From the NCBI GenBank assembly GCA_900315085.1, contig OMXW01000006.1, positions 1-32,785 on the forward strand: 32,785 nt of DNA, given 5' to 3'. The position numbers and the translations under genes were made by a program. Of this stretch, positions 16,572 to 31,864 are shown one piece after another (the stretch's first letter is position 1; every line of letters begins with the position of its first letter). This DNA is from an uncultured Eubacteriales bacterium. Its GTDB lineage: Bacteria > Bacillota > Clostridia > Oscillospirales > Acutalibacteraceae. Under the pieces are notes generated by a model, which saw only the letters and a program-made list of their open reading frames with translations, did no database searches and was not told the origin of the DNA.

Positions 16572-16786
16572 TTATTTCTTATTTTGTTTTTTAAAGCACG
16601 CCTTATCATAGGACGGGTTGAACGCGTAGAAGTTCTTTTCATTTAGGGAATCTGTGAGCAAACGCAAGTTCTCACCAAATCTCTGATAGTGTACAACCTC
16701 GCGTTCGCGTAAAAATCTAATTGCGTCCTTTACATCGTAATCATCGCAGAAGCGCAGGATGTTATCGTAGGTTGTTCTTGCCTTTT
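16572..16786 (-). CDS. cotJC: cotJC segment 3 (C-terminal residues 140-207)
   Basis: This open stretch has no start of its own and encodes the C terminus of a manganese-catalase-like CotJC protein. After the shared core (KA codons) it reads RTTYDNILRFCDDYDVKDA, then FLREREVVHYQRFGE, ending KKQNKK and a TAA at 16572. The His in REVVH is the last metal ligand of the family. Upstream the frame runs into the stop of the adjacent recombinase gene. It fits in frame onto segment 2 at the 9-bp repeat 16778-16786 / 22071-22079. The segment shows no internal stop or frameshift, which argues against random decay. Confidence 0.88.
16778..16786. other. Recombination core, element 1, recombinase side
   Basis: The plus-strand sequence TTGCCTTTT recurs at 22071-22079. 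Both copies sit at the same codon position of cotJC (AAG GCA on the minus strand), so crossing over anywhere within the nine bases restores the frame. It is 25 bp from the end of the recombinase gene. Confidence 0.8.
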
Positions 16787-16811
16787 GCTCCCCTAAGGCT
16801 GTATAGACACT

Positions 16812-18311
16812 TCAAAAGTTCCAGTAAATATTTATTACTCTGTTATTTCTGCTCCCTCCTATTTCTATTTTTTCTATAAGTGTTTGAGCAGTCAAATAGT
16901 CAAGCTTGCTTATAGTTTTCAGTTGGTTAAGATTCGGAGTATTATTTGGAATATGTGATAATTCGCTTTTAACTGTTTTTATTTCCTCCGAGAAACGTTT
17001 TTTTAAACTCAAATATTCTTCTTTTGTTATCAGTCCGTCAAGTTTATCATAATAAATTGAGTTCAGCCGGTTATTAAGCTTTGCAAGCTCTGAATTTAAG
17101 GTTTCAGGCTTCAAATACTGTTCAGAATATTCCGATTGTGTATTAATTAATTCTGACAGCATATTTTGGTCAAGATATTTTTCAAGGATTGTTTTGAGTT
17201 TACATATTATCTCCCCGTGCAAGACTGTTTCAGATATTGTCATACCTCCGCATCGGGATTTGTCAACAAAGGCGGTATTACAACGGAAATATCTTTTTCC
17301 GCCCGAATAGTATACTCGCATTGAGCCGCCGCAGTTAAGGCACCTTACTTTTCCTGCCAAAACGTTCGGCTTCCCTGTTTTTCCGCTTTTTAGCTTCTCT
17401 TTCCTGAGCTTCTGCGCTTTATCCCATACTTTACGGCTGATTATTGCTTCATGCGTATTCTCAACAATATCCCACTCAGACGGCGGTTTTTGCCTCTGCT
17501 TGCTTGATTTATAGGAAACCTTTTCCTGCCTGCCCTGAACCGTATTTCCTATGTAAATCTGATTTGAAAGAATTCTCTGCACCGAATATGTATGCCACAT
17601 ATCCGAGCAATCTCGGTGGATATTCTGAAAAGATTGTTCGTGCTGTTTTTTATATGTCGCGGGATTTGGTATTCTCTCAGTATTTAATATTCTTGCGATT
17701 GAGGTTACTCCCATACCATTTAAATATAGTCGAAAAATATATCTGACCGTATTTGCGGCTTCATCGTCAATAATCAGGCGGTTCTTATTTTGCGGATCTT
17801 TTATATATCCAAACGGCGCGAAAGCTCCTACCCAAAGTCCCTGTCTGCGTTTATTTGAAAGAGTTGCGCGGATATTTTCCGACAAGTCCTCGAGGTACCA
17901 CTGATCGGTAAGAGCGAAAATCTGGCGCGTTTTCCTGTTTGCTCTGTTCATTGTATCGCCGTTATCTACAACCGAAATAAAACGAATCCCCCATATCGGA
18001 AATAATCCGTTTACATACTTTTCAATAAGCTCCATATCACGAGCAAATCTTGACTGGGTTTTGCAGATTATTGTGTTAAAGCGCTTTTTTCGTGCGTCGG
18101 AAATCATTCGGTTGAATTCGGGACGTTCTCTGTCTGAGCCGCTGAAATCCTCGTCTTTATAGATATCATATATTTCAAAGCCGTTTCTTTTGCAATAATC
18201 GGTTAGAATATTCTGCTGATTTATAATACTTTCGCTTTCATCATCCCTGCTCAGTTTATTTCTGTCCTCCTGCGAGAGCCTGGCATATAAAGCGGCGATT
18301 TGTTTTTGCAT
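16812..18311 (-). CDS. Large serine recombinase of element 1
   Basis: A 499-residue site-specific recombinase. The resolvase domain begins AALYARLSQED with the catalytic Ser at residue 13, followed by the DEDFSGSDRERPEFN loop and TQSRFARD. The recombinase domain (FGYIKDP, IARILNTERIPNP, VQRILSNQIYIGN) is followed by a zinc ribbon (RCLNCGGSM then RCGG, about residues 322-360) and a coiled-coil tail (LNSELAKLNNRLNSIYYDKL). All parts expected of an active enzyme are present. The gene ends 25 bp from the cotJC junction, the usual position of an integrase beside its attachment site. It follows a 35-residue gene by 3 bp. It is the likely enzyme for excising element 1. Confidence 0.95.
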   Translation of the reverse strand: MQKQIAALYARLSQEDRNKLSRDDESESIINQQNILTDYCKRNGFEIYDIYKDEDFSGSDRERPEFNRMISDARKKRFNTIICKTQSRFARDMELIEKYVNGLFPIWGIRFISVVDNGDTMNRANRKTRQIFALTDQWYLEDLSENIRATLSNKRRQGLWVGAFAPFGYIKDPQNKNRLIIDDEAANTVRYIFRLYLNGMGVTSIARILNTERIPNPATYKKQHEQSFQNIHRDCSDMWHTYSVQRILSNQIYIGNTVQGRQEKVSYKSSKQRQKPPSEWDIVENTHEAIISRKVWDKAQKLRKEKLKSGKTGKPNVLAGKVRCLNCGGSMRVYYSGGKRYFRCNTAFVDKSRCGGMTISETVLHGEIICKLKTILEKYLDQNMLSELINTQSEYSEQYLKPETLNSELAKLNNRLNSIYYDKLDGLITKEEYLSLKKRFSEEIKTVKSELSHIPNNTPNLNQLKTISKLDYLTAQTLIEKIEIGGSRNNRVINIYWNF

Positions 18312-18314
18312 AAA

Positions 18315-18422
18315 TCAGGCTCTTTCACGGTTAATAATTATATATGCTGCCGCATTATTTAACAATTCCTTTTTCTCGCTTTCGCACTTGCTCTTAAAGA
18401 TGCTGTTCACTTTTATTTCCAT
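18315..18422 (-). CDS. 35-residue small protein upstream of recombinase 1
   Basis: A short gene (MEIKVNSIFKS... ending NRERA) with a good AAGGAG site and a stop 3 bp before the recombinase ATG, so the two should be co-translated. It is hydrophilic and helical in character, with no recognised domain. By position it could be a recombination directionality factor or a conserved companion of this recombinase type; this is a guess from context only. Confidence 0.55.
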   Translation of the reverse strand: MEIKVNSIFKSKCESEKKELLNNAAAYIIINRERA

Positions 18423-18443
18423 AACAAAATCACTCCTTGCCAA

Positions 18444-18472
18444 TATTTATGAAAGGAAGATGAAAAAATAAC
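18444..18472 (-). promoter_or_regulatory. Possible sporulation sigma-E-like promoter for recombinase 1
   Basis: GTTATTTT (18465-18472) and CATAAATA (18444-18451), 13 bases apart on the minus strand, partly match the mother-cell sigma-E consensus (about GTCATATT and CATACAAT). The -35 overlaps the T tract of the coaBC terminator, so the match may be accidental. Confidence 0.22.
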
Positions 18473-18495
18473 CTCCGCCGAAGTTGGCAGAGGTT
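18463..18495 (-). terminator. Terminator of the pan-coaBC operon
   Basis: AACCTCTGCC pairs with GGCGGAGGTT around an aacttc loop on the minus strand, followed by ATTTTTTC. It separates the pan operon from the recombinase unit. Confidence 0.9.
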
Positions 18496-18499
18496 TGAA

Positions 18500-19702
18500 T
18501 TATTTATTGCTGAGAGCAAGTAGCTCGTCAAGAAGCCTGTCCGCGGCGTCTGCTTTTGAAAGGAGAGGCAAATCGGTTACTCCGTCCTTTTTAATCAGCA
18601 CAAGGTGATTTGTATCTGTTCCAAAGCCCGAGCCCTCATCTCTGAGAGAATTCGCGGCTATTAAATCCGCGTTTTTCCTGCTAAGCTTTTCGCGTGAATT
18701 TTCAAGCATGTTCTCGGTTTCCATTGAAAAGCCGCAGAGAATTTGACCGACACGCTTATGCTCGCCGAGCCACTTTAAAATATCGGTTGTGCGCTTCATG
18801 GGAATAGCCATATCAGTGTCGCCGTCGGACTTTTTGATTTTCTCGGCGGCTGTGCTGACGGGGGTATAGTCCGCAACAGCGGCGGTTTTTATGATTATAT
18901 CCATGTCCGAATAGTTTTCGCTGACCGCTTCAAACATATCCTGAGCGCTCTGAACGCTAACAAGCTTTGTAAACGGCGGAGGAGCAATACTTACGGGACC
19001 GCTGACAAGAGTTACCTCCGCTCCGCGAAGCATAGCCTGGCGCGCTACAGCGTAGCCCATCTTTCCTGTGGAGTGATTTGTAATAAAGCGAACCGGGTCG
19101 ATGCTCTCCCTGGTAGGACCTGCGGTTACAAGCACCTTTTTCCCTGCCAAATCCTTTTCCTTTGCGATTTCACGCAGAATGTAGTCGAGAAGCACCTGCT
19201 CCGAAGGCATTTTGCCCGTTCCCGTGTATCCGCAGGCAAGATATCCGTTATCGGGCGGAATGACAGTAACTCCGTATTTTTCAAGCGTTTTAATATTATC
19301 CTGCACCACCTGATTTGTGAACATATTAACGTTCATCGCAGGTGAAACGATTACAGGGCATTTCATCGCCAGGTAAGTTGTGCTGAGCATATCATCGGCA
19401 ATTCCGTGCGCCATTTTAGCTATGATATTTGCCGATGCCGGAGCTATCAGCATAACGTCCGCCTTGTCTGCAATTGAAACGTGCGCAACGTTAAAAATGA
19501 AATCACGGTCAAAGGTATCGATCATACACTTGTTTTTGGTAAGTGTTTCAAACGCAATGGGATTGATAAAATTAGCGGCGTTTTTTGTCATTATTACATG
19601 TACGTCCGCGTGCAGCTTTACAAGACTGCTTGCGAGATTTGCTATTTTATACGCCGCAATGCTTCCCGTTACGCCGAGAACCACTGTTTTTCCTTTTAAC
19701 AT
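18500..19702 (-). CDS. coaBC: Bifunctional phosphopantothenoylcysteine decarboxylase/synthetase
   Basis: CoaBC converts 4'-phosphopantothenate and cysteine to 4'-phosphopantetheine in CoA synthesis. It is 400 residues from ATG 19702; the longer frame overlaps panD and is not used. The flavin-dependent CoaC half shows VTGSIAAYKIANL, PAMNVNMF and the ACGYTGTGKMP loop with the active-site Cys. The CoaB half begins KVLVTAGPTRESIDPVRFITN with STGKMGYAVA, and has KTAAVADYTP near the middle. It starts 10 bp after panD and ends the operon before a strong terminator. Joining coaBC to panBCD gives one transcript from ketoisovalerate toward CoA. Confidence 0.96.
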   Translation of the reverse strand: MLKGKTVVLGVTGSIAAYKIANLASSLVKLHADVHVIMTKNAANFINPIAFETLTKNKCMIDTFDRDFIFNVAHVSIADKADVMLIAPASANIIAKMAHGIADDMLSTTYLAMKCPVIVSPAMNVNMFTNQVVQDNIKTLEKYGVTVIPPDNGYLACGYTGTGKMPSEQVLLDYILREIAKEKDLAGKKVLVTAGPTRESIDPVRFITNHSTGKMGYAVARQAMLRGAEVTLVSGPVSIAPPPFTKLVSVQSAQDMFEAVSENYSDMDIIIKTAAVADYTPVSTAAEKIKKSDGDTDMAIPMKRTTDILKWLGEHKRVGQILCGFSMETENMLENSREKLSRKNADLIAANSLRDEGSGFGTDTNHLVLIKKDGVTDLPLLSKADAADRLLDELLALSNK

Positions 19703-19712
19703 ATACGCACCC

Positions 19713-20102
19713 TTACATATCGCACAGCTTACCGTGCTTTTCGTATCTTGTTGTTTTAGTAATTTGGTTGTTATCGTCCACAAAAACTACCTTTGGAGCG
19801 TGTGTTGACGCTTCTTCGGGCGTCATCTGAGCGTAGCACATAATAATAATCTTATCATCCACGCTGACTTGGCGGGCTGCCGCACCGTTAAGACAAATAA
19901 GTCCGCTGCCGCGCTGTCCCGCGATTACATAGGTTGTGAAGCGGCTGCCGTTGTTAACGTCAACGATTTGAACCTGCTCGTATTCCATGATTCCCGCAGC
20001 TTCCATAAGCGCTTCATCGATTGTAATACTGCCCACATAACTGAGTTCAGCCTGTTTTACGGTGGCGCGGTGGATTTTTCCCTTTAGTAATGTAATGTTC
20101 AT
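19713..20102 (-). CDS. panD: Aspartate 1-decarboxylase precursor
   Basis: PanD makes beta-alanine from aspartate. At 129 residues it has normal length. The self-cleavage site is intact: YVGSITID with Gly24-Ser25, where Ser25 becomes the pyruvoyl group. The downstream blocks [32 protein letters not shown] and YAQM match the family. It lies 9 bp after panC and 10 bp before coaBC. Confidence 0.97.
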
Positions 20103-20111
20103 TGTTCTCCC

Positions 20112-20954
20112 TTATTCCGCGATAAAGTTATCAATCAGTCGGGTTTTGCCGATGTATACTGCTATAGCTGTGAGCACAGGACCGTCGATTTGGTGGTGAA
20201 TTTCTATTGAATCCCACTTTACCATTTCAACATAGTCAATCTTTGCCAAAGGCTCTGATTCAATCAACTCAGTCATTGCGGAAAGTACCTTATCACCGTC
20301 GCGCTCTCCGTCCTTTATCATTTTCTCGCCTAAGAATATCGCTTTGCTGAGCACAAGAGCCGCCTTGCGTTCCTCGGCAGAAAGGTAAGTGTTGCGCGAG
20401 CTTTTTGCGAGTCCGTCCGCTTCACGGATGATTGGACAGCCTACAACCTCAAGATTCATATTGAGGTTGCGAACCATTCTTCTGATTACCGCAAGCTGCT
20501 GCGCGTCCTTCTGACCGAAATACGCCTTATCCGGAGTAACTATATTAAAGAGCTTGTTTACTACGGTGCAAACACCTCTGAAATGAGTTGGGCGGCTTTT
20601 TCCGCACAGTTCTTTTGTAACGCCGGTCATATCCACAAATGTGGTAAAATCATCTCCGTACATCTCGCTCGGCTCGGGATGGAATACCATCGCCGCACCT
20701 GTACTCTCGCAGAGCGCGCAGTCGGCTTCAAGGTCGCGCGGATAGGTTTCCAGATCCTCGTTGGGCGCAAACTGAATGGGATTGACAAATACGCTTACTA
20801 CAACTTTGTCGTTTTCGGCAACGGCTCTTTTTACAAGGCTTTGGTGTCCCTCGTGAAGATAGCCCATGGTGGGAACAAGACCTACGCTAAACCCCTGTTT
20901 TTTCCATTCACGTACCTGATCTTTTACTTCCTTTACGGTTCTTGCTAAAATCAT
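20112..20954 (-). CDS. panC: Pantoate-beta-alanine ligase
   Basis: PanC joins pantoate and beta-alanine with ATP to form pantothenate. The 280-residue protein has the nucleotide-binding PTMGYLHEGHQSLV near residue 28, VFVNPIQFAPNEDLETYPR, YFGQKDAQQLAVIRRM and SSRNTYLSAEER, all family hallmarks. It is 13 bp after panB and 9 bp before panD, in a tight operon. Confidence 0.97.
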   Translation of the reverse strand: MILARTVKEVKDQVREWKKQGFSVGLVPTMGYLHEGHQSLVKRAVAENDKVVVSVFVNPIQFAPNEDLETYPRDLEADCALCESTGAAMVFHPEPSEMYGDDFTTFVDMTGVTKELCGKSRPTHFRGVCTVVNKLFNIVTPDKAYFGQKDAQQLAVIRRMVRNLNMNLEVVGCPIIREADGLAKSSRNTYLSAEERKAALVLSKAIFLGEKMIKDGERDGDKVLSAMTELIESEPLAKIDYVEMVKWDSIEIHHQIDGPVLTAIAVYIGKTRLIDNFIAE

Positions 20955-20967
20955 CGTCTGCTCCCCC

Positions 20968-21795
20968 TTATTTCAGTTTTTCAATTATTTCGTCGTCGAT
21001 TGCGTAGCAGTGCTCCTGAGACGGGAAAACTCCGCTTTGTACTTCGTTTATATACTGCTCAAACGCCGCCTTCATTACTTCGCCGACGTTGGAGAATTTC
21101 TTTACAAATTTTGGTGTGAAGTCGGAATACATTCCAAGCATGTCCTGATATACGAGAACCTGACCGTCGCACTCTGCTCCTGCGCCGATTCCGATTGTGG
21201 GAATAGTCAGCTTTTTGGTGATGAGCGCCGCAAGCTTTGCCGGAACGCCCTCGATCACTACGCAGAACGCGCCTGCTTCTTCAACCGCCAGCGCGTCGGC
21301 AATCAGCTTTTTTGCTGCCGCTTCGGTTTTGCCCTGTACCTTATGGCCGCCGAATGCGTTTACCGACTGAGGAGTAAGTCCGATATGTGCAACCACGGGG
21401 ATTCCGGCAGCAACGATCGCTTTTATCTGCTCCTTTACCTCAACGCCGCCCTCGAGCTTAACCGCGTTTGCCCTGGCTTCTTTCATTAATCTGCCCGCGT
21501 TTACCACAGCGTCATACACGCTTGTCTGGTATGACATAAAGGGCATATCTACTACAACCATTGCGTTTTTCGCTCCGCGCGCTACTGCCGCGCCGTGGTG
21601 AATCATGTCCTCCATTGTTACGGATACGGTATCCTCGTAACCGAGCATTACGTTTCCTAGCGAATCGCCTACGAGAATCATGTTTACGCCTGCCTCGTCA
21701 ATAAGGCGAGCGGTTGAATAATCGTAAGCTGTGAGCATGGTTATTTTTTTGTTTTCATTTTTTGCCTGCTGTAATGTTAAAACTGTGTTCTTCAA
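20968..21795 (-). CDS. panB: Ketopantoate hydroxymethyltransferase
   Basis: PanB makes ketopantoate from alpha-ketoisovalerate and methylene-tetrahydrofolate, the first pantothenate step. The best start is TTG 21795-21793, with AAAGGAG (21804-21810) eight bases upstream; this gives 275 residues, the family's usual length. A longer frame from 21885 would add a 30-residue tail covering the ribosome binding site. Motifs include [43 protein letters not shown] and [14 protein letters not shown]. No panE (ketopantoate reductase) is in the window, so that step must be encoded elsewhere or done by IlvC. Confidence 0.96.
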
Positions 21796-21898
21796 TTTAA
21801 ATTCTCCTTTACACACATATTTCACATTCTTGCATATTTCTTCTGCTTTTAAGGTATAACTTCGTTTGAATGTCATCCTTACCAATTAAACTATCACC

Positions 21899-21915
21899 TT
21901 GCCGTAAAACGGCAA
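21899..21915. promoter_or_regulatory. Small hairpin in the panB leader
   Basis: TTGCCG-TAAAA-CGGCAA forms a 6-bp perfect inverted repeat in the roughly 150-nt untranslated leader between the promoter and panB. It lacks a following T run in either direction, so it is not an obvious terminator; it may be an operator or leader structure. Confidence 0.35.
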
Positions 21916-21952
21916 TCGGACGGGTAATAAAAAATGTTCTTTACCAGCGTTT

Positions 21953-21980: not shown

Positions 21981-22070
21981 TGGAATTAGCGGTAAAAACA
22001 CTGTACAGAAGCGCATAATCGAAAAAGTATGATTTGTATCGGTATGATATTAAATTTAGTAGTGCATATA

Positions 22071-22079
22071 TTGCCTTTT
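22071..22079. other. Recombination core, element 1, pan-operon side
   Basis: This is the second copy of TTGCCTTTT, in segment 2 of cotJC. Beyond it toward lower coordinates the catalase similarity stops abruptly, although the frame stays open to a TGA at 21967. Confidence 0.8.
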
Positions 22080-22406
22080 CATCCGCGCCCATGTTTTCGT
22101 GCAAATCAGTTATTGCGTCACCCTTGCTTTGGAGATACGCGGCGGTAAACGGTACTCCAGCGGCAGAGGCAGGATAAATTCCGAGCGTATGATCTACAAA
22201 ATACGCGTCAAGTCCAGCCTTTTGGATTTCCTCAGGGGTTGAATTCTTGGTCAGCTGATAGACTATTGCGCCTATCATTTCAAGATGGTTCAGCTCTTCT
22301 GTACCTATATCCGTCAGTGTCGCTTTAAGCTCGGGCATAGGCATTGTGAAACGCTGGCTGAGATATCGCAGAGACGCTCCCAGCTCACCGTCCGGACCAC
22401 CGTACT
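22072..22406 (-). CDS. cotJC: cotJC segment 2 (residues 32-139, with flanking core codons)
   Basis: This segment encodes the middle of a CotJC/manganese catalase: YGGPDGELGASLRYLSQRF, then TDIGTEELNHLEMIG, GLDAYFVDH, AAGVPFTAAYLQSKGD and ENMGADEKA. It carries four of five family metal ligands: Glu in GEL, Glu and His in EELNH, and Glu in DEK. As an isolated frame (21967-22452) it would need a TTG start with no ribosome binding site and would carry foreign residues at both ends. Those ends start exactly at the repeats 22400-22406 and 22071-22079. Joined to segments 1 and 3 it gives normal family sequence. Confidence 0.9.
22400..22406. other. Recombination core, element 2, catalase-middle side
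   Basis: CCGTACT on the plus strand (AGTACGG on the minus) recurs at 31776-31782. In both copies TAC is an in-frame Tyr codon of cotJC (QYGG), so exchange restores the frame. Confidence 0.72.
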
Positions 22407-22478
22407 TCAAAATGTGATAGTCTTTATCGGTAATTATTATTAAAAAGGGCAAAAAATGAGATAATTCGAAAAAAGAGG

Positions 22479-22507: not shown

Positions 22508-22553
22508 ATAGGTTAAGAGATTATAGGCAATTACTGCCAAAAGGAGTATGCAA

Positions 22554-24053
22554 ATGAAAAAAACAGTAAGTTTTTTGCTTACAGCCGCTATGGCTGTATC
22601 AGGACTTGTGGGTACTGCCTCGGCTGCTTCTGCCGCAACCGTTGAGGAAACGCAGCAGACCGCCGCGCAGATTCAGGAAATTCCTGCTGCCGCTCAGGAG
22701 AATTATCCTAAGATCAATCTGCTTGAGAACCGCGAGGACAGCGTTAAAATCGGCTGGACTAAGTACGCGGGAGCGGTTAAATACCGCGTGTTCATCAAGA
22801 GCGGAAACACCTGGAAAGGCCTTGGCAACTCAACTTGTCTGAGCTATATCCACAAGGTTTCCAAGAACAATTCAAGCTATATTTACACCGTACGCGCAAT
22901 TGGCAGCGACGGAAGCTTTATCAGCGGATACAACAAGGACGGCTATGCTCACAAATTTGTTGTTACACCAAGCATTACAAAGATTGAAAATGTTGACGGA
23001 GGCACAAAGCTTACATGGCCTGCAAAATCAGGCGTTAATTACCGCGTTTTCTACCGCGACAGCAACAACACCTGGCGCAAGCTTGCAAAGCTGACCACAA
23101 ACTCTTATGTGCACAAAAATCTGACAAACGGCGCTAAATGGACTTACACCATCCGTTACGAGAACAGCAAGGGTGAATTTGTAAGCCCCTACAACTCAAA
23201 CGGCTGGAAGAATACATATGTTGCCGCTCCCAAAATCACTTCGATTAACAGAAACAATAATGTTTTTGAGATTAACTGGGATAAAAACAATTACGCGGAG
23301 AGATATCGCGTATACCGCAAGCAGGGCAGCGATTCATGGGTTACTATGGGCGACACTACCGGCACAAAGTTCACCGATAAGAAAATGGTTTCGGGCGTAA
23401 AATTCACTTACATGGTTCGCGCTCTTAACGCTAACGCTACTAAGTACACAAGCGCACTGAGCAAATCAAGATGGAAAATCTGCGTTATGGGCAATATGTC
23501 AGAAAAGACAAGACAGCTAAGAGAAGGCTTGATCGACTTCCTCAGCAAGCAGGTAGGCAACAAAAACCGCAAGTATATTGACCACGTTAACAAGTACGGT
23601 AACTTCGGTCTTGGCTACGGCACTCAGTGGTGCGCGGTATTCGGCTGGGGCGCAATGGATATGTACTCACGCACTCAGAGCAACGTTACCAATCAGATTC
23701 CCCCGCGCTGGCATGTTAGTGAAATCGCCAACGAAGCGCGTAAGCTCGGCGGCTGGTACAACACATTCAGCACTAACTATGAGGCTAAGCCCGGCGATAT
23801 CTTCATGACCTCATTCCAGAAATATCCGTATGAGGACGGAAGAACTCACGTTGGATACATTGAATATGTTGACAAGGACAAGAACGGTAAGGTTACTTAC
23901 ATCCACACAATCGAGGGTAACTTCAACTGGGAGCTCGGCGACAACTCGGAAACTGTTGTAGGCAGAAGCTGCTGGAAGGATCGCCTTGAAAAAGATCACG
24001 GCGCAATGGTTACAGATTACCTCGATATCAGCAAAATCCTGAAAGTTAATTAA
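22554..24053 (+). CDS. Secreted CHAP-domain protein with three fibronectin-III-like repeats
   Basis: A 499-residue exported protein, probably a cell-wall amidase or endopeptidase. The start is ATG 22554, seven bases after AGGAG; an ATG six bases earlier is too close. A signal peptide (KKTVSFLLTAAMAVSGLVG, ending ASAA) is followed by three related repeats of about 85 residues (each with YRVF or YRVY, a Trp and a TYxxR strand) that look like fibronectin type III. The C-terminal CHAP domain has TQWCAVF with the catalytic Cys near residue 360, RTHVGYI with the His near 432 and IEGNFN. The gene has its own promoter and a terminator shared with the converging gene. It may remodel the wall or act as a competitor lysin. 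Confidence 0.85.
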   Translation: MKKTVSFLLTAAMAVSGLVGTASAASAATVEETQQTAAQIQEIPAAAQENYPKINLLENREDSVKIGWTKYAGAVKYRVFIKSGNTWKGLGNSTCLSYIHKVSKNNSSYIYTVRAIGSDGSFISGYNKDGYAHKFVVTPSITKIENVDGGTKLTWPAKSGVNYRVFYRDSNNTWRKLAKLTTNSYVHKNLTNGAKWTYTIRYENSKGEFVSPYNSNGWKNTYVAAPKITSINRNNNVFEINWDKNNYAERYRVYRKQGSDSWVTMGDTTGTKFTDKKMVSGVKFTYMVRALNANATKYTSALSKSRWKICVMGNMSEKTRQLREGLIDFLSKQVGNKNRKYIDHVNKYGNFGLGYGTQWCAVFGWGAMDMYSRTQSNVTNQIPPRWHVSEIANEARKLGGWYNTFSTNYEAKPGDIFMTSFQKYPYEDGRTHVGYIEYVDKDKNGKVTYIHTIEGNFNWELGDNSETVVGRSCWKDRLEKDHGAMVTDYLDISKILKVN

Positions 24054-24061
24054 ACAATCAT

Positions 24062-24101: not shown

Positions 24102-26375
24102 TTAACTTGCTTTGCCTGTCTTGCCTATTCCGTTTTTATAATTTGAGAGGTATCTTTGGATGCAGGTGGTGTCGGAAACAGTGAGCTTTCCGTCGCCGTT
24201 TACATCTCCTACCTTCTTTGACATACTGTTCAGATTAATCAGTCCGATTGCGGCTTTCTGGATATCGGACGCGTCCTTGATGCTTACTATTCCGTCGAGG
24301 TTTGAGTCTCCCATCAGGAACGGGTTTTCCTCTGTGGTTGATATCAGCGTGTAACTTTGGCTGTTGTCAACTGTAAAGCTATAGTCGTGCGTTATAGGCG
24401 CGTTATTTGAAGAAGTGTAGCCCAGTTCGTAGTAGCTCATTTCCATGCTGAATGAACAGAACGGAACTATGTACAGTTCAAGATGATGTCCTGCCGCTAC
24501 GGTGTAGTAATTTGGATTAAGCCAGATCGTGTAGTCGTAATATTCGCCTTTTTTGATTGGCTCTGAGCGCGTTACCGCGGTTGAAGGCTCATAGCCTGCC
24601 TCGGGATTACGTAAATCGATTGAGCCTTCGGCAACGATTTTTGAGGTAATCATTGAGCTGTTCCATTCGGCAATATCGTACGGCTCATGTCCGCCGCCTA
24701 CCTCTACTGCCTTTTCCTTGATTATGGTGCGTCCGAGGGTTGTCCTGCCTTCGGGTATTACGTAGCAGTTGAACGGTGAATCGGCTCTGTCAACAAGCAC
24801 AGCGCTCATAATAATCTCGCCTTTATCGATGTCATCAGTCTTTGCTCTTACATGAACCTCAGTCGGTCCGTTGAGGGTGATCGGTGATGTTATCTCTCTT
24901 TTCCACAAAAGAGCGTTTGAATTTGACTTGCCCTTAAAGGTGTCGCTTAACAACAGATTGTCCATCATGTGCGCGTCGTTAGCGTCAACCTTATGCTCGC
25001 TTGCATCGTAAGGATAAACCGCAGTTTTTACGCCTGTTTTCCAATCCTCCGCACTGTAGAATTTGCCGTCCTGATTGCTTTGTACGGTGAAGGACGGAAG
25101 ATTTTGAACATTGTTGTCGGCTCCGGCGAGGTAGTGTGAAAACCAGCGGTTAATGTATTCGCTGTATGAGACGTCGCCGATCATTATGTCATAGTTACTC
25201 TCAAAGTTGAAAAGATTTGCGTGCGCATTCTGGTGGAGCACAGCTTTTACGGTTGCGCCTGACTTTAAAAACGCGTCGCGCATTAAGTCAAACTGCTTAG
25301 GCGTTACATTGGTATCGTTTAAACCCTGAATAAGCAACGCTGAGGCTTTAATATTACTGTTCTTAAAGTAGTCGCGTCTATCCCAGAATTCGCCGTAGAA
25401 ACCCTGAAGGGCTACCTGCGTGTTCTTTACATATGTAGAGTATTTATCGAATGTTAAGTGCTGTTCGGCAGTGTAATCTTTAAGGAGTCGGCTGGAGCAT
25501 ATCTGCATAAGTCGTGAAGTGTAGTCAAACGCAGGATGAAATCCGCGCACCGTTCCCTGTGAGTTGGAATAATCATACCAGCTTGATACGCCTGCTATCG
25601 GTACGATCGTTTCAAGGCCTTCAACGCCCGTTGTCGCTACAGCGAACGCCGCTGAACCCGATTAAGAACCGCCTATCATTCCAACCTTGCCGTTTGACCA
25701 GTCGGCTGAGATTTCTTTGTTGTCAGTTAGATTAGTGTATGCTTTGCGCTTGCCGTTGAGCCATTCGATAACGCTTTTGAACGCCTGAGTTTCCATTTCG
25801 GTTCCCGTGCATAGTATGCCCTCGGAGCCGTAGGTGCCCAGTCCTGCAGCCTGTATTACAGCAAAGCCGCGAACCAAAGAATAATCATACATTCCGATTC
25901 TAATGGGATAAATTGTTGAGCTTGTACCGAATGTGACGTTCCAGTTTGCCATATTTTCCTGAGACGCTGCCTGCAATGTTGTAACAGAGCCGCTAGGGGT
26001 ACGCTTTGCGGGCTTTGCTTTAAGCTGCTCATCATCTACCGTTTCATCGGCATCCGTGAAGCCTGAATAGTTCTTACCCATTGTGTAAGGGCGCGCTTCG
26101 TAGATAACTGGTGCTTTGTAATATCCCTCTGCCGCCGCGCGCGGAACCTGTACATACGCTTTTATAAGGTCGGGCTTTCCGTCGAGGTCGGTATCGTAGT
26201 CGGTTTCCACGCACACCGAAAAGCGGAGAATGTCACTGTTATCGTTTGAATAGCCCTCAGCACGCGCGTCGGAATACTGCACAATCGGCTGTGCAGAGCC
26301 GTTTACGATTTTCATTCCCTTTTCGCCTGTCTGTGCCGCCGACACTGTAGCAGGCATCGCCATGCCCAAAAGCAT
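24102..26375 (-). pseudogene. Dockerin-bearing X-Pro dipeptidyl-peptidase (S15/CocE type), interrupted by a stop at the nucleophile
   Basis: One continuous frame encodes an exported S15-family peptidase with a C-terminal dockerin, but an in-frame TAA at 25662-25664 breaks it. The stop replaces the residue right after the catalytic Ser: GMIGGS-stop-SGSAAFAVATTGVEGL, where the family has GxSYLG, so a Tyr codon probably mutated. Asp (GLNDTNVTP) and His (NAHANLF) lie downstream and look intact. The dockerin repeats are DSNLDGIVSIKDAS and DVNGDGKLTVSDTT. The N terminus is also suspect: signal-peptide-like codons (KILSAFLSTA) continue upstream of ATG 26375, but no usual start precedes them before an in-frame TGA. 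The product, if any, ends before the active site is complete. Confidence 0.85.
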
Positions 26376-26498
26376 TGCCGTACTCAGAAAAGCTGACAGG
26401 ATTTTTTGATGTCACCACTCCATAAACAAATTTTACATTTATACATTAACAAAAATAGAATAATTTGTAAATAGGGATATTTGACGAAAATATCATAC

Positions 26499-26533
26499 AA
26501 AAAAGGCTCGAAGCGTATTGCTTCAAGCCTTTT
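26499..26533 (-). terminator. Terminator of pnp
   Basis: On the minus strand AAAAGGCTTGAAGC pairs with GCTTCGAGCCTTTT around aatac, with a T run. It lies directly after the pnp stop. Confidence 0.92.
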
Positions 26534-26540
26534 GGATTAT

Positions 26541-28736
26541 TTATCTTCTGCCGCGGTTATTGTTTCTGGGACGGCGCGGACGCTGGGGCTTATCGCCATC
26601 GTCCTCGGGCTTTAATCCGTCAACGTCAATAAGAACCTGACGGCGGCTCAGGTTGAGTCTGCCCTTGTCGTCGATTTCCATTACCTTTACGCGGATGATA
26701 TCGCCAACGTTTACAACGTCGGTCACGTTCTCAGTGCGCTTAACATCGAGCTGTGAAACATGAACAAGGCCTTCCTTGCCGGGTGCGATTTCTACAAACG
26801 CGCCGAAGTCCATGATTCTTGTAACCTTGCCAAGGTACATTGCACCGGGCTCGGGATCGGAAGCGATTGTCTGAACAATTTCAACTGCGCGCTTGCACTT
26901 CTCTGTGTCAAGACCTGCAACGAATACCTGTCCGAACTCGCCGTCCTCTTCGATATCAATTTTAACCTCACACTCTGCCTGGATCTCCTTGATAACCTTA
27001 CCGCTCTTGCCGATAACCTCGCTGATTTTGTCAGCAGGGATTGTTGTTGTGAACATCTTGGGAGCGAAAGGTGAAAGCTCTTCACGCGGCTGTGCGATTG
27101 CCTTGAGCATTACCTCGTCAAGGATGAACAGACGAGCCTTGTGAGTCTTTGCAAGAGCTTCCTTAACCATTTCAGGTGTAAGACCGCTGATTTTGAGGTC
27201 CATCTGGATTGCTGTGATACCCTCGTGTGTACCAGCTACCTTGAAGTCCATATCGCCGAAGAAGTCCTCAAGGCCCTGGATATCAACCATTGTCATCCAA
27301 CGCTCGCCCTCGGTGATAAGACCGCAGGAGATACCTGCAACGGGAGCCTTGATCGGAACACCCGCGTCCATAAGAGCGAGGGTTGAACCGCAGACTGAAC
27401 CCTGTGAGGTTGAACCGTTTGATGAGAGAACCTCGGAAACAAGGCGGAGAGCGTAGGGGAATTCCTCAACCGACGGAATTACAGGGAGAAGCGCTCTTTC
27501 TGCAAGCGCGCCGTGACCGATTTCACGTCTGCCGGGACCTCTGCTGGGCTTTGTTTCGCCAACCGAGTAGCTCGGGAAATTGTAGTGGTGGATATATCTC
27601 TTCTCGGTTTCGCCGTCAATACCGTCAAGAAGCTGCTTGTCGGATACGGGACCGAGTGTAGCTACGGTGAGAACCTGTGTCTGACCTCTGGTGAACATAC
27701 CTGAACCATGTGTTCTGGGAAGTACGCCTACCTCGGAAGCGAGAGGACGGATATCATCCATTCCTCTGCCGTCAACACGCTTCTGCTCATCGAGCAGCCA
27801 GCGGCGAACGATAAACTTCTGTGTCTTGTAGAGGCACTCGTCAATTGCTGCCTCCTGCTCGGGATAAAGCTCGTCGAATTTCTCGTGAACTGCCTCGTAG
27901 ATGGGCTTTAAGCGCTCGTCGCGGACAGTCTTGTCGTCGGTATCGAGAGCAAGCTTAACATCCTCCTCGGCAAATGCCTTAATTGCCTCAAACATGTCAT
28001 GGTCGGGCTCAAGGCTTGCAAACTCAAACTTGGGCTTGCCGATTTCGGCTGTGATTTCGTTGATAAATTTGATTATGCTCTGGTTAGCCTCGTGACCAAA
28101 CATGATTGCGTCGTACATTTCATCGTCGGATACGCAGTCTGCGCCTGCTTCGATCATCGCGATTCTCTCGCTTGTTGAAGCTACGGTTGTTGACATTCTG
28201 CTTACCTTTCTCTGCTCCTCTGTGGGGTTGATCACATATTCGCCGTCAACCATACCTACCGAACAGCCTGAGATTGGGCCGTTCCACGGAACGTCGGAAA
28301 TTGAAATAGCGATTGAAGCGCCGATCATTGCTACGATTTCGGGCTGGCAGTCGGGATCAACGCTCATTACCGTGCAGACGATTGAAACGTCGTTGCGCAT
28401 GCTCTTGTCAAAAAGAGGACGGATGGGACGGTCAATTACACGGCTTGTGAGGATTGCGTGCTCGCTGGGTCTTCCCTCTCTCTTTAAATATGAGCCGGGA
28501 ATTCTGCCTACGGAATAAAGCTTCTCCTCGTAGTCAACTGAAAGCGGGAAGAAATCTACTCCCTCTCTGGGCTTTGCGGACGCTGTTACTGCTACATGTA
28601 CCACGGTGTCGCCGTAGGTTACAAGACATGCGCCGTTTGCAAGCTGTGTCATTTTGCCTGTTTCTACCTTGAGCGGACGTCCCGCAAATTCGGTTTCGAA
28701 CACTCTGTACTTGTCAAATGTCATAAATCTGTTCAT
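26541..28736 (-). CDS. pnp: Polynucleotide phosphorylase
   Basis: PNPase degrades RNA 3' to 5' with phosphate and is a core mRNA-turnover enzyme. The 731-residue protein has two RNase PH domains (first with GACLVTYGDTVVHV, second with HGSGMFTRGQTQVL and FPSYSVGETKPSRGPGRREI), a KH domain (IPADKISEVIGKSGKVIKEI) and an S1 domain (GKVTRIMDFGAFVEIAPGKE). The tail is basic (RRPRNNNRGRR). AAAGGA stands seven bases before ATG 28736. It follows rpsO, the order seen in many bacteria, with a strongly structured spacer. It lies inside the putative intervening element 2. Confidence 0.98.
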   Translation of the reverse strand: MNRFMTFDKYRVFETEFAGRPLKVETGKMTQLANGACLVTYGDTVVHVAVTASAKPREGVDFFPLSVDYEEKLYSVGRIPGSYLKREGRPSEHAILTSRVIDRPIRPLFDKSMRNDVSIVCTVMSVDPDCQPEIVAMIGASIAISISDVPWNGPISGCSVGMVDGEYVINPTEEQRKVSRMSTTVASTSERIAMIEAGADCVSDDEMYDAIMFGHEANQSIIKFINEITAEIGKPKFEFASLEPDHDMFEAIKAFAEEDVKLALDTDDKTVRDERLKPIYEAVHEKFDELYPEQEAAIDECLYKTQKFIVRRWLLDEQKRVDGRGMDDIRPLASEVGVLPRTHGSGMFTRGQTQVLTVATLGPVSDKQLLDGIDGETEKRYIHHYNFPSYSVGETKPSRGPGRREIGHGALAERALLPVIPSVEEFPYALRLVSEVLSSNGSTSQGSVCGSTLALMDAGVPIKAPVAGISCGLITEGERWMTMVDIQGLEDFFGDMDFKVAGTHEGITAIQMDLKISGLTPEMVKEALAKTHKARLFILDEVMLKAIAQPREELSPFAPKMFTTTIPADKISEVIGKSGKVIKEIQAECEVKIDIEEDGEFGQVFVAGLDTEKCKRAVEIVQTIASDPEPGAMYLGKVTRIMDFGAFVEIAPGKEGLVHVSQLDVKRTENVTDVVNVGDIIRVKVMEIDDKGRLNLSRRQVLIDVDGLKPEDDGDKPQRPRRPRNNNRGRR

Positions 28737-28762
28737 AGTAAAATCCTTTCTGATATTTTATT

Positions 28763-28876
28763 ATATATCGGGATTTTACACCGTTTTAGCAATAAAACCA
28801 TACCGTATTAAATGTGTTGCTGATATATGGTATCGTTTTACCGCTAAAAAGGGTGAGTTATAAAATCCCGTTATAT
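28763..28876 (-). promoter_or_regulatory. Long imperfect hairpin in the pnp leader
   Basis: CGGGATTTTA (28769-28778) and TAAAATCCCG (28861-28870) are perfect inverted arms. Moving inward, CACC/GGTG, TTTTAGC/GCTAAAA, TAAAAC/GTTTTA and ATACC/GGTAT also pair, about 32 bp in total. ATATA/TATAT adds five more outside the arms. It lies 26 bp before the pnp start and may be an RNase III-type autoregulatory target like the pnp leader of E. coli, or a small palindromic insertion. Confidence 0.75.
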
Positions 28877-28894
28877 TTTTGCTAATTTGAATTT

Positions 28895-28926
28895 AGGGCA
28901 AACAGGGTTACTGCCCTGCTTGCCCT
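28895..28926 (-). terminator. GC-rich hairpin after rpsO
   Basis: AGGGCAAGCAGGG pairs over 13 bp (one G-T pair) with CCCTGTTTGCCCT, loop cagtaa, on the minus strand 13 bp past the rpsO stop. No T run follows, so it may stabilise or process the rpsO mRNA, or act as a weak attenuator before pnp. Confidence 0.65.
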
Positions 28927-28939
28927 GAGTTTGTAAGAA

Positions 28940-29203
28940 TTACTTACGGATACCGAGTCTTGAAATGATTGAACGGTATCTTTCAATGTCTACCTTCTTG
29001 AGGTAGCCGAGAAGGCTTCTTCTCTGACCTACCATCATTAAAAGACCGCGTCTGCTGTGATGGTCTTTCTTATGAATCTTGAGGTGCTCGGTGAGGTCGT
29101 TGATTCTCTTTGTGAGAAGCGCGATCTGAACCTCGGGTGATCCTGTGTCGCCCTCATGGGTAGCGTATTCGGCCATTATAGCCTGCTTTTCTTCTTTAAG
29201 CAT
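28940..29203 (-). CDS. rpsO: 30S ribosomal protein S15
   Basis: S15 of the small ribosomal subunit, 87 residues from ATG 29203. A GTG upstream overlaps the AAGGTGG ribosome binding site and is rejected. Family blocks include [49 protein letters not shown] and [12 protein letters not shown]. It has its own promoter and is followed by pnp 200 bp later. Confidence 0.98.
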
Positions 29204-29308
29204 TTTGTTTTCCACCTTTTATTTTATTTTCGCCTGAATCTCAGTAGCGGGCTGTGAAAATCCGCTTTGCGGCTTGACCCCGAAACCGTGATACAGGTCA
29301 ACTGCTTT

Positions 29309-29337
29309 ATTATATCACAACATATTGGAAATGTAAA
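29309..29337 (-). promoter_or_regulatory. Sigma-A promoter of rpsO
   Basis: TTTACA (29332-29337) and TATAAT (29309-29314) are 17 bases apart on the minus strand. The transcript would begin with a roughly 100-nt GC-richer leader, a possible site for S15 autoregulation; no specific fold was proven. Confidence 0.8.
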
Positions 29338-29347
29338 GACTTTTTCG

Positions 29348-29743
29348 TTATTCTTTATTTTCGCGTTTCGATTCGTGATCCTGGAGCATCTTTGAAAATA
29401 TAGCGATTATTCGCTTTTTCTCCGCTCTGTCAAATCTGCGGTAGGCTGCGATTATATCGCGCTCCGTTTTACTTAGAGTAACACTGTAACTTAGCCTATC
29501 CGAAAGCTTTGGGTTTGGGTTGTCTTCTATGAGGGTGTTTACATCTACCGAAAACAGCTTTGCAAGCTTATTTATTGTTGCTATGCTTGGTTCGGATACG
29601 CCTGTTTCATACTTGGTGTAGGTTGAGCGATTGACTGTGAGATAATTTGCTACCTGTTGCTGCGTCAGTCCGCTGCTGAGTCTGTATGCGGCGAGTTTTC
29701 TGCTGAACGATGTGCCGCGTTCATCAAGGTCTTTTTCCGACAT
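29348..29743 (-). CDS. XRE-family transcriptional regulator
   Basis: A 131-residue repressor-type protein. The N-terminal helix-turn-helix is clear: FSRKLAAYRLSSGLTQQQVANYLTVNRSTYTKYETGVSEPS, followed by INKLAKLFSVDVNTLI. The C-terminal half (LSKTERDIIAAYRRFDRAEKKRIIAIF) is helical and may dimerise. ATG 29743 stands six bases after a perfect AGGAGG; an ATG-like GTG upstream is too close to it. A 17-bp palindrome upstream is a candidate autoregulatory operator. Its targets are unknown; it lies inside element 2, so control of the recombinase is possible but unproven. Confidence 0.92.
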   Translation of the reverse strand: MSEKDLDERGTSFSRKLAAYRLSSGLTQQQVANYLTVNRSTYTKYETGVSEPSIATINKLAKLFSVDVNTLIEDNPNPKLSDRLSYSVTLSKTERDIIAAYRRFDRAEKKRIIAIFSKMLQDHESKRENKE

Positions 29744-29782
29744 GAACACCCTCCTTCCCTATGTATTTTGACCATTGGATTA

Positions 29783-29788
29783 ATTATA
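29783..29788 (-). promoter_or_regulatory. Probable -10 element for the XRE regulator
   Basis: TATAAT on the minus strand lies 40 bp upstream of the start. No strong -35 is visible. Confidence 0.5.
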
Positions 29789-29815
29789 ATACAACCAAAA
29801 TATGCTTTCTATAAA

Positions 29816-29832
29816 TGTGAAGATACTTCACA
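29816..29832. promoter_or_regulatory. Palindromic operator candidate
   Basis: TGTGAAG-ATA-CTTCACA is a perfect 7-bp inverted repeat. It lies just upstream of the XRE gene's promoter, the size and position expected for a dimeric XRE repressor's own operator. Confidence 0.55.
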
Positions 29833-29838
29833 ATAGGC

Positions 29839-29869
29839 AAAAAAAAGAGACGCCTAAGCAGGCAGCTCT
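29839..29869 (-). terminator. Terminator after the DUF4250 gene
   Basis: AGAG..GCCT pairs with AGGC..CTCT (loop gctt, two mismatches) on the minus strand, followed by a run of T. It begins at the DUF4250 stop. Confidence 0.8.
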
Positions 29870-30042
29870 TACATGAATTTATTCAATTTTTCGTCGTAGG
29901 TATAATCAACTGCTTCAAGCTTTTGTTCAAGCTCTTTTCTGTCTATTTGAAGGTCGTCGCACATTTCGTCGAGCGATGAGTAGCTGTCGCGGAGCTTGGT
30001 GTTTACATAGCTTAAAAGTATCATCGGGTCGTTCGGTATCAT
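29869..30042 (-). CDS. DUF4250 small protein
   Basis: A 57-residue protein (start MIPNDPMILLSYVNTKLRD, then SLDEMCDDLQIDRKEL, ending YTYDEKLNKFM). This matches the pattern of the DUF4250 family, small proteins common in gut Firmicutes, with a predicted helix-turn-helix-like shape. Function is unknown. AAGGAAA upstream serves as a modest ribosome binding site. It is an isolated short gene with its own terminator. Confidence 0.75.
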   Translation of the reverse strand: MIPNDPMILLSYVNTKLRDSYSSLDEMCDDLQIDRKELEQKLEAVDYTYDEKLNKFM

Positions 30043-30077
30043 AATATTTTCCTTTCCTTATTTATACTTTTATTTTA

Positions 30078-30281
30078 TCACAGATTATCGATTATATCAA
30101 TATTATTGTAATATCCGCTCATTGTTATTCCGATGTTTTCAAGCATCTTTTCTTTATACGGTTTTGATTGTTCTTTTGACAACTGCCAATTTACCTTATT
30201 ATCACAGAGCGTGAACCACGGAATTTTTTGATTATTTTCTGATAAAATAAAGGCTTCTGCGCGAAGCGTTTGCTTTTTCAA
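30078..30281 (-). CDS. 67-residue unknown protein divergent from recombinase 2
   Basis: From TTG 30281 (preceded by GGGGTGAT) this encodes 67 residues (KKQTLRAEAFILSENN... WFTLCDNKVNWQLSKEQ... ENIGITMSGYYNNID). A longer frame to 30392 would overlap the recombinase and is not favoured. No family is recognised with certainty. It is transcribed away from the recombinase across a 60-bp gap that carries an inverted repeat. A role as an accessory or directionality protein for the element is possible. Confidence 0.55.
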   Translation of the reverse strand: MKKQTLRAEAFILSENNQKIPWFTLCDNKVNWQLSKEQSKPYKEKMLENIGITMSGYYNNIDIIDNL

Positions 30282-30282
30282 A

Positions 30283-30341
30283 AATATCACCCCGATAATA
30301 ATTATGTGTTCGGATAAATAAATATTTACGGGAGTGATATT
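30283..30341. repeat. Inverted repeat spanning the divergent start region of recombinase 2
   Basis: AATATCACCCCG (30283-30294) and CGGGAGTGATATT (30329-30341) are inverted copies with one base inserted. Each arm contains the ribosome binding site of one divergent gene, so the symmetry could partly reflect that; it may also be a shared operator. Confidence 0.45.
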
Positions 30342-31748
30342 ATGGAGAAAAAAACAGCCGCCGCTTATATTCGCGTATCTACCACCGACCAAACCGAGCT
30401 TTCACCTGACAGTCAAATCAAGATCGTGCGGAAATACGCCGATCAGCACGGGTACAGATTGCCATATGAATATATCTTCCGAGACGACGGTATCAGCGGA
30501 AGGAGAGCCGATAAACGTCCTGAATTTAACGCGATGATTGCCGCTTCAAAACAAAAGCCTGCTCCGTTTTGCGCGGTGCTGCTGTGGAAGTTTTCGCGGT
30601 TTGCAAGGAATCAGGAAGAAAGCATTTTTTATAAGTCGATGCTTCGCCGCTGCGGTGTGGAGGTAATAAGCGTATCGGAGCCCGCTGTTGACGGACCGTT
30701 CGGCACTTTGATTGAGAGGATCATTGAGTGGTCTGACGAATATTACTCTATAAGGCTTTCGGGCGAGGTCAAGCGCGGTATGACAGAAAAGGCAGAACGC
30801 GGCGGCGCGGTAAGTATTCCATCGTTTGGTTATGATATAATCGACAAAAAGTATGTGCCAAACGATAAAGCTGATATTGTTAGGGAGATTTTTTCCGATT
30901 ACCTGAGCGGTATGTCATTGGTACATATAGCGCGGAATCTGAATTTACGCGGAATCAGGACGAACCGCGGCAACATGTGGGAAAGCCGAACGGTGGAATA
31001 TGTGCTGAGAAATGTTGTATACATCGGCAAGATACGCTGGAATCCAAAACGGCGCACCCGGTTAAACTACGGTGACAAGGACATTATTGTTTCAGACGGA
31101 TTGCATGAACCGATTGTTGAAAGAGAGATTTTTGACGAGGTTCAGCATAAGCTCGATGAACAGAAAAATCGGAGTTTGAAATACAGACACGAAAAGTCGG
31201 TTTGCAATGAATACATGCTCAGAAGTCTGGTTAAGTGCTCCGATTGTGGGGGAAGTCTGACTATGTCAGTCAAAGGCACGGGGCTTCAATGTTGTAATTA
31301 CATTCACGGGAAGTGCGGAGTATCGCATTATATTTCACTTAGTATCATTAATAAAACTATTATTGAAGCGGTTGAAAAGGCGTTTCATAATGAGTGCTTT
31401 GAGATAGAATTGAACCGCACATCAGAAAAACGCACTGATTATGATTTGATTATTCAAAAAGAAACTAAGAAATACGGTCGGATAAAAAAAGCGTATGAGG
31501 AAGGGATTTACAGCGTTGAAGAATACAAGACGAGCCGAAAGGTTATTGATGAAAAGATTTATAAGTTAAAAAAGCAGCGGGATTTCTCGGATAAGGTGAT
31601 TATGCCGACTGAGGGTAAAAAGGAAATTGCAGCCGTTCTGAAAAGTCATGATGTAAGCGAACGTGAGAAAAATGAGCTTTTGCGCTCCTTTATTCACAAA
31701 ATTGTTTTTGACCGTGCCGAATCTGCGGTGCGTATCTTTTTTGCCTGA
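30342..31748 (+). CDS. Large serine recombinase of element 2
   Basis: A 468-residue site-specific recombinase. The resolvase domain starts AAAYIRVSTTDQ with catalytic Ser13 and includes FRDDGISGRRADKRPEFN, WKFSRFARN and EPAVDGPFGTLIE. The recombinase domain (SFGYDIID, IARNLNLRGIRTNRG, VEYVLRNVVYIGK) is followed by a zinc-ribbon-like block (KCSDCGGSL then CCNY and KCG, with non-standard spacing) and a coiled-coil C terminus (KKYGRIKKAYEEGIYSVEEY). It is clearly different in sequence from the recombinase of element 1, so the two elements have separate enzymes. The gene ends 27 bp from the cotJC segment 1 junction. The start is supported by GGGAGTGAT. Confidence 0.95.
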   Translation: MEKKTAAAYIRVSTTDQTELSPDSQIKIVRKYADQHGYRLPYEYIFRDDGISGRRADKRPEFNAMIAASKQKPAPFCAVLLWKFSRFARNQEESIFYKSMLRRCGVEVISVSEPAVDGPFGTLIERIIEWSDEYYSIRLSGEVKRGMTEKAERGGAVSIPSFGYDIIDKKYVPNDKADIVREIFSDYLSGMSLVHIARNLNLRGIRTNRGNMWESRTVEYVLRNVVYIGKIRWNPKRRTRLNYGDKDIIVSDGLHEPIVEREIFDEVQHKLDEQKNRSLKYRHEKSVCNEYMLRSLVKCSDCGGSLTMSVKGTGLQCCNYIHGKCGVSHYISLSIINKTIIEAVEKAFHNECFEIELNRTSEKRTDYDLIIQKETKKYGRIKKAYEEGIYSVEEYKTSRKVIDEKIYKLKKQRDFSDKVIMPTEGKKEIAAVLKSHDVSEREKNELLRSFIHKIVFDRAESAVRIFFA

Positions 31749-31753
31749 TATTA

Positions 31754-31864
31754 TCACCTTTTGAAATACGCTCCTCCGTACTGACTTGCAATTATTTTTG
31801 CAAGCTTTAAGTTGGGCGTTTTGATGTTTACAGGATACTGTAATTTCTTTTCATATACAAACAT
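31754..31864 (-). CDS. cotJC: cotJC segment 1 (N-terminal residues 1-31)
   Basis: ATG 31864-31862 overlaps the cotJB stop by one base (TGATG), as in an intact cotJBC operon. It reads MFVYEKKLQYPVNIKT, then NLKLAKIIASQYGG, the standard CotJC N terminus. After QYGG the family similarity stops, and five foreign residues (AYFKR) lead to a TGA at 31754. At the 7-bp repeat 31776-31782 / 22400-22406 it joins in frame with segment 2 to give SQYGGPDGELGA. Without excision the cell would make only a 36-residue peptide. Confidence 0.93.
   Translation of the reverse strand: MFVYEKKLQYPVNIKTPNLKLAKIIASQYGGAYFKR
31776..31782. other. Recombination core, element 2, recombinase side
   Basis: CCGTACT on the plus strand is repeated at 22400-22406. 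Just inside the element, TACG and CGTA flank gaggag as a small inverted repeat. A core this short needs experimental confirmation, but the frame match supports it. Confidence 0.72.

Follow-up and report, generated by a model that had tools for sequence, protein, structure and literature searches.

How can a bacterium make a spore-coat protein from a gene that lies in three pieces, with chromosomal core genes between them? The question is raised by a 32,785-nucleotide stretch (hereafter the window; assembly GCA_900315085.1, contig OMXW01000006.1, positions 1 to 32,785) from a gut Ruminococcus-type bacterium, in which cotJC, a coat gene for a manganese catalase-like protein, is broken at two points. 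Two elements, each with a large serine recombinase (LSR) and matching attachment (att) sites, split the gene, and each is probably excised precisely in the sporulating mother cell to leave a cotJC of 207 codons. The source genome is a metagenome assembly of 1.93 Mb in 152 contigs, 88.75% complete. The last 99 bp of the window (32687-32785) are identical to G000:C120:51429-51527, so that the window continues into that contig. The genome has a Spo0A match above the cut-off, and a sigma-E-like protein scores slightly below it.

The three pieces of cotJC and their crossover points

The pieces lie on the minus strand in coding order: piece 1 (codons 1-30, 31775..31864) would be joined at a core GG to piece 2 (codons 31-135, 22084..22398), which runs to a core GA, where piece 3 begins (codons 136-207 plus stop, 16572..16790). 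The genes cotJA (32111..32311, minus; Pfam CotJA E=3.8e-14) and cotJB (31864..32130, minus; Pfam CotJB E=1e-26) stand directly upstream of the cotJC start, and the order cotJA, cotJB, cotJC descends from 32311. Element 1 fills the first gap (9,376 bp) and element 2 the second (5,293 bp). An earlier note, made from these letters alone, had described three ordered same-strand pieces with repeats and recombinases at the edges of the gaps, and re-reading of the window bore out each of these points. Its claim that deletion of both gaps gives a single open frame also held: joined in silico, the pieces make 207 codons free of internal stops, agree with the family consensus across each join and match Mn_catalase at E=2.3e-52. 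Uninterrupted proteins of the joined type were found in relatives, the closest 96% identical (Ruminococcus sp.), with an R. bromii protein at 84%. The same note had set a second, intact cotJC or decay of the pieces against its idea. The assembly, at its 88.75% completeness, yielded no cotJC match besides the three pieces, and decay is considered below.

The attP sites of serine recombinases are palindromic around a 2-bp core, and such sites can be assembled from the ends of both elements. In element 1, the right arm with its core GG (31773-31774) occupies 31752..31774 and the left arm with the second GG (22397-22398) occupies 22397..22419, both on the minus strand. Combined, the outer ends read TATCACATTTTGAAGTACGGT-GG-AGCGTATTTCAAAAGGTGATA, where the right arm matches the left (22399-22419) across the dyad at 18 of 21 positions, a level reached by none of 200,000 random pairs. 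In element 2, the right arm with core GA (22082-22083; 22061..22083, minus) and the left arm with core GA (16789-16790; 16789..16811, minus) agree at 13 of 21 positions, with a chance probability of 5.7e-4. The first crossover is thus the GG in codon 31 and the second the GA in codon 136. By eye, the arms are similar and the cores identical in most relatives split at the corresponding sites; at the second site G003 and G072 deviate.

The direct repeats reported earlier at the gap borders are present as described, but the 9-bp repeat AAAAGGCAA is not the second crossover: it lies off the dyad centre, and the join that it produces departs from the family consensus. With GA as core the second join becomes GAEQKARTTY, the sequence found in uninterrupted relatives such as P0001 (family consensus AEQKARTTY). 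The join GADEKARTTY proposed in the earlier note is therefore wrong, and its DEK is element sequence, because the crossover core is GA.

One recombinase family for each insertion site

Each element carries one LSR, whose 3' end lies beside one of the breaks in cotJC. In int1 (30342..31748, plus), from the family tied to the first break, the Resolvase and Recombinase domains exceed their cut-offs and the zinc ribbon, at 23 bits, falls just short of its own (25.3); in int2 (16812..18311, minus), from the family tied to the second, all three LSR domains score above cut-off.

For a survey of the genus, 100 same-genus genomes (labelled G###) were searched with the joined cotJC protein and the loci were then mapped; the split sites, called 32, 64 and 139, are where the alignments end, the window crossovers being at codons 31 and 136. 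By our reading, cotJC is full-length in 48 genomes (with one internal stop each in G004 and G095), split in 39 and cut off at or near contig ends in 4; one further genome has a 35% paralogue only, and 8 have no match. Among the 39 split genomes, at least two pieces were seen in 31, and 8 show a single piece ending at a site. Breaks occur at site 32 in 16 genomes, at site 64 in 15 and at site 139 in 16, and eight genomes are doubly split. Wherever at least two pieces share a contig, as in 11 genomes, their order and single strand are kept.

Most breaks adjoin one LSR family per site: int1-like at 32, a third family at 64 and int2-like at 139. Some breaks had no visible recombinase next to them, namely those of G018 and G049 at site 32 and of G003, G018 and G054 at site 139, and the one in G072 at 139 has only a distant one. 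Relatives of int1 (E<=1e-60) occur in 15 genomes, 13 of them split at 32, as against 3 of the 85 genomes without int1 (Fisher P=8e-12). At the same threshold int2 relatives occur in 33 genomes. Twelve of these are full-length at 45% identity or more, that of G002 is truncated and the remainder are at 38% or below; all 12 full-length relatives sit in genomes split at 139 (P=2e-12). Together with the matched attP arms, this pairing of family and site strongly supports the earlier proposal that two excisable elements interrupt a rebuildable cotJC.

Additional 3' copies were met in two genomes: G033 has an intact cotJC and, downstream, a further piece of codons 134-207, and G018 has two pieces of codons 135-207 that lie 4.9 kb apart. 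Some elements may bring their own cotJC 3' end.

Loci beyond the genus and apparent excised forms

With an int1 alignment as query, the best 80 loci in genome contigs (genus members included) and 80 in viral contigs were collected. cotJC abuts the INT1 recombinase in 71 of the 80 genome-contig loci, spread across Clostridia, on the piece-2 side in 40 and on the piece-1 side in 31; of the others, three have cotJC elsewhere and six have none. In the viral contigs, 17 of 80 loci abut cotJC. Eighteen genomes were hand-chosen from the 80 genome-contig loci for a reading of piece order, and 16 of them have two or more pieces per contig, always ordered and on one strand, with the pieces of the other two (G113, G114) on different contigs. 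In Ruminococcus flavefaciens SAb67 (NZ_UETD01000004.1) four ordered pieces are spread over 88 kb by three elements. All three gaps have an adjacent recombinase, two of them hold prophage-tail and lysozyme-type genes, and the pieces, joined at shared core words, give 203 open codons; this strain adds insertion sites near codons 66 and 177. Other strains with a split cotJC are Faecalispora jeddahensis JCD, with an element of about 4.5 kb, and Anaeromassilibacillus senegalensis An867, with one of about 53 kb. The earlier note had singled out two stacked elements as the unusual part. Given SAb67 and the eight doubly split genomes of the genus, two elements in one coat gene can no longer be regarded as unique. 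Outside the genus of the window, a termite-gut Oscillospiraceae genome has a cotJC piece between an int1-like and an int2-like recombinase.

Forms resembling excision products were also found. The two int1 genomes that are unsplit at site 32 are G044 and G050: their cotJC runs unbroken across it, and their int1 lies beside an unbroken attP of the predicted form. The int1 contig of G044 (42.3 kb) has a 25-bp terminal overlap, as expected of a circle; that of G050 has none. Among INT1 loci that have no abutting cotJC and enough sequence behind the recombinase, 30 of 54 have a dyad of at least 15/20 within 120 bp. Read as attP, nine of these dyads have core GG and seven core CC; the rest include several with a different core and several terminators. 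A degenerate attP pattern found one contig only in the viral set; looking behind INT1 gave more. The product of the predicted excision reaction thus appears to exist for the int1 family, in relatives of the window. Read from the recombinase, a GG core may place it on the piece-2 side and a CC core, as in the window, on the piece-1 side, which would account for both orientations.

These loci bear directly on the possibility that the elements are ordinary prophage-type insertions, excised on phage induction or never, with cotJC knocked out meanwhile and no developmental control. Phages, or elements with phage genes, are frequent among the relatives, and the excised forms were seen with no link to sporulation. 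Yet the window elements have kept att sites and recombinases with no phage structural or lysis gene among their scanned open reading frames (ORFs), so that induction would have no evident purpose. On this and the evidence of the next sections, we regard a plain prophage origin of the pattern as improbable.

Conservation of the split gene

Were cotJC a decaying pseudogene, broken once and left as remnants, its pieces should show it. In favour of decay, the gene is dispensable in some spore formers, C. difficile among them (PMC11222575). The pieces have nevertheless stayed open: no stop was found in the counted codons of any of the 39 split genomes, a count that began more than four codons away from each break, took in little of piece 3 of the window and covered some genomes in part. 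Median pN/pS by segment is 0.08-0.22 in the split groups vs 0.12-0.18 in 34 non-split genomes, with synonymous sites near saturation. In eight pairs of genomes split at the same site, each of which may have inherited one insertion, synonymous and nonsynonymous codon differences number 32/1, 70/8, 88/6, 72/10, 66/13, 84/21, 60/10 and 28/10, the first being G032 and G034, both split at 32. The int1 and int2 frames are open as well. By these sequence comparisons the split pieces keep purifying selection, which makes a decaying gene very unlikely and also speaks against a cotJC idly knocked out by prophages. The absence of decay, the collinear pieces on shared contigs and the circular, attP-bearing relative further support a gene that can be rebuilt.

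Core genes inside the elements

The cargo, unmentioned in the earlier note, includes core genes. From the int1 end, element 1 holds a DUF4250 gene (29869..30042, minus; Pfam DUF4250 E=1.3e-27), an XRE-type regulator (29348..29749, minus; Pfam HTH_3 E=2.6e-13), rpsO for ribosomal protein S15 (28940..29215, minus; TIGR00952 above cut-off), pnp for polynucleotide phosphorylase (26541..28736, minus), an S15-type peptidase with dockerin in two frames (24102..26375, minus) and a secreted fn3/CHAP-like protein with weak Pfam matches (22548..24053, plus). Element 2 holds panB (20968..21885; TIGR00222), panC (20112..20954; TIGR00018), panD (19713..20102; TIGR00223) and coaBC (18500..19783; TIGR00521), all on the minus strand. 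For rpsO, coaBC and full-length pnp the genome gives one match each, all inside the elements.

Such cargo might point to an assembly chimera, with core genes or pieces misjoined in the metagenome bin: the assembly is fragmented, and in relatives XRE-rpsO-pnp forms a block of the chromosome, the genes standing side by side at 18 of the 19 rpsO loci examined. That conservation also rules out the cargo of element 1 as foreign phage DNA. A misjoin is, however, hard to credit. The ends of element 1 bear matching arms of one attP. G093, with an intact cotJC, has a small-ORF remnant (by eye) between cotJC and the same block, and G029 and G114 likewise join int1, a small ORF, XRE, rpsO and pnp, in that order behind piece 2. 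For element 2, panBCD-coaBC and int2 recur jointly in G002 at 92-98% identity (95-98% for the operon, 92% for the truncated int2).

No single step accounts for both the G093 order and that of the window; the dockerin-bearing two-frame peptidase is missing from the corresponding block in G093. In G029 and G114, the genes inward of piece 1 are a tRNA nucleotidyltransferase, a PALP enzyme, a P-type ATPase and SpoIVB, followed in G029 by Spo0A (in G114 all but the tRNA nucleotidyltransferase were read by eye). Their pieces lie on different contigs, and the arrangement may reflect either an element of very great size or an inversion of the chromosome. The site-32 element of G032 carries Maf and CobW genes among others. 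The cargo of element 2 appears mobile, because G002 has the pan operon and a truncated int2 while its cotJC is intact; panB itself belongs to the accessory genes of the genus, with 19 of 100 genomes carrying it, that of the window included. In G002 the vitamin operon sits behind prophage-tail and amidase genes and appears to travel with phage-type DNA.

Possible control of excision

A small ORF (30078..30281, minus) divergent from int1 is a candidate recombination directionality factor (RDF). ORFs of 67-83 residues stand beside int1 in nine site-32 elements and in no examined locus that lacks such an element. The -10 box of promoters read by mother-cell sigma factors is characterised by CATA. 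In eight of the nine elements this motif precedes the small ORF at a distance of exactly 25 nt (16 nt in G077), whereas in the whole interval -18..-40 it was found for 139 of 1,246 ORFs. Of 67 genomes, 51 have a CATA element in the cotJA promoter. No promoter consensus beyond CATA emerged for the small ORF; its structure model has a mean pLDDT of 77.9. The CATA at -25 argues against prophage-type insertions lacking developmental control and makes the small ORF a candidate excision factor under a mother-cell promoter for element 1. The divergent gap (30282-30341) contains, by eye, an inverted repeat, AATATCACTCCCG / CGGGGTGATATT, that may serve as an operator.

Discussion

The simplest mechanism for this locus would be of the skin type, in which a recombinase and a directionality factor excise an element in the mother cell. 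The window shows the marks of such a system: the elements lie inside a sporulation gene, their removal leaves an open frame, and each has its own recombinase and matching att sites. During sporulation, the recombinase of each element would cut it out precisely in the mother cell, and both excisions together would restore the single 207-codon cotJC. The small ORF near int1, with its CATA-type promoter, would serve as directionality factor for element 1 and keep its excision from occurring outside the mother cell. As the mother cell dies, the germ line would keep the elements, which could then hold rpsO, pnp and coaBC, and these genes would in turn make loss of an element lethal.

Several observations weigh against this account. 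Neither a joined cotJC nor a circle was seen for the window's own genome, and the circular relative G044 could be a free phage. Mother-cell specificity is suggested by the candidate promoter and RDF pair at site 32 only. The small ORF was not found in the complete elements of G032, G034 and G091, nor anything resembling it in element 2; it has no significant relative in Pfam, PHROG, or PDB sequence or fold searches, the PDB including the SprA-SprB (YokA-YotN) chains. The CATA comparison was made post hoc, after the pattern had been noticed, with no -35 box defined, and the window's own cotJA lacks CATA. Its int1 is at the piece-1 side, unlike most of the genus; R. flavefaciens is not, to our knowledge, known to sporulate; and the 'only copy' status of the core genes is provisional because of the incompleteness of the assembly.

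Known systems offer close parallels. Like the cotJC elements, skin in sigK (B. subtilis; skinCd in C. difficile) lies in a sporulation gene, and there an LSR excises it in the mother cell, with the RDF CD1234 of skinCd under sigma-E control (PMC5025042; PMC4191935). Unlike sigK, cotJC is a coat catalase-like gene with several sites, different recombinase families, often multiple elements and core genes inside them, and excision here is predicted. SP-beta in spsM of B. subtilis reconstitutes a coat-related gene through a phage integrase-type LSR, SprA, with SprB (PMC4191935). SprA (YokA) is the best solved-structure relative of int1 (E=1.7e-8); SP-beta differs in being one phage at one site. 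The gin element in gerE of B. cereus is similarly non-phage, with an LSR and an extra factor, GirX, and recombination within a 9-bp sequence; it differs in its 28.6 kb with three recombinases in one element and in having no core genes reported in the text available (PMC5595907). The yin element in yabG of C. botulinum is likewise a clostridial prophage-like insert with a circular form, and has a putative 72-residue RDF with a putative SigK promoter; it is described as unique to one strain (PMC10747680), whereas cotJC insertions span a genus and beyond. As for the gene itself, insertions in two C. difficile CotJC homologues lowered catalase activity with no coat defect, and a CotJC-like gene of that species lies beside prophage phi027 (PMC11222575). 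In the literature found, which covered openly licensed papers, there was no report of an interrupted cotJC. Compared with the parts available of PMC5595907, PMC4191935, PMC5814915, PMC11222575, PMC10747680 and PMC5025042, what is new is the gene, the presence of several sites each served by its own family of recombinases, the stacking of elements and the core genes that they carry.

A wider proposal, for and against which the balance is even, is that cotJC is a docking gene with many sockets. About five sites would accept different serine-recombinase phages or elements, and the coat protein would be made only if all of them excise. Excision in a doomed cell would have let the elements take up parts of the core chromosome, such as rpsO-pnp and panBCD-coaBC in the window and, next to a break in relatives, spo0A and spoIVB; the mother cell would discard sole copies of ribosomal-protein and coenzyme A genes, and the germ line could never lose the element.

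The recombinase families, with their defined and conserved att sites, and the candidate directionality factor are offered here for further use. If the proposed excision is true, Clostridia of gut and rumen would commonly have one coat gene in this condition, with as many as three elements stacked in it, and the many genomes in which cotJC seems absent or interrupted would be explained. In spore formers, programmed excision of DNA would then not be confined to a few genes and strains. There would also be a route by which essential genes come to reside in DNA thrown away by a terminal cell, which would parallel, in bacteria, the loss of genome from the soma alone.

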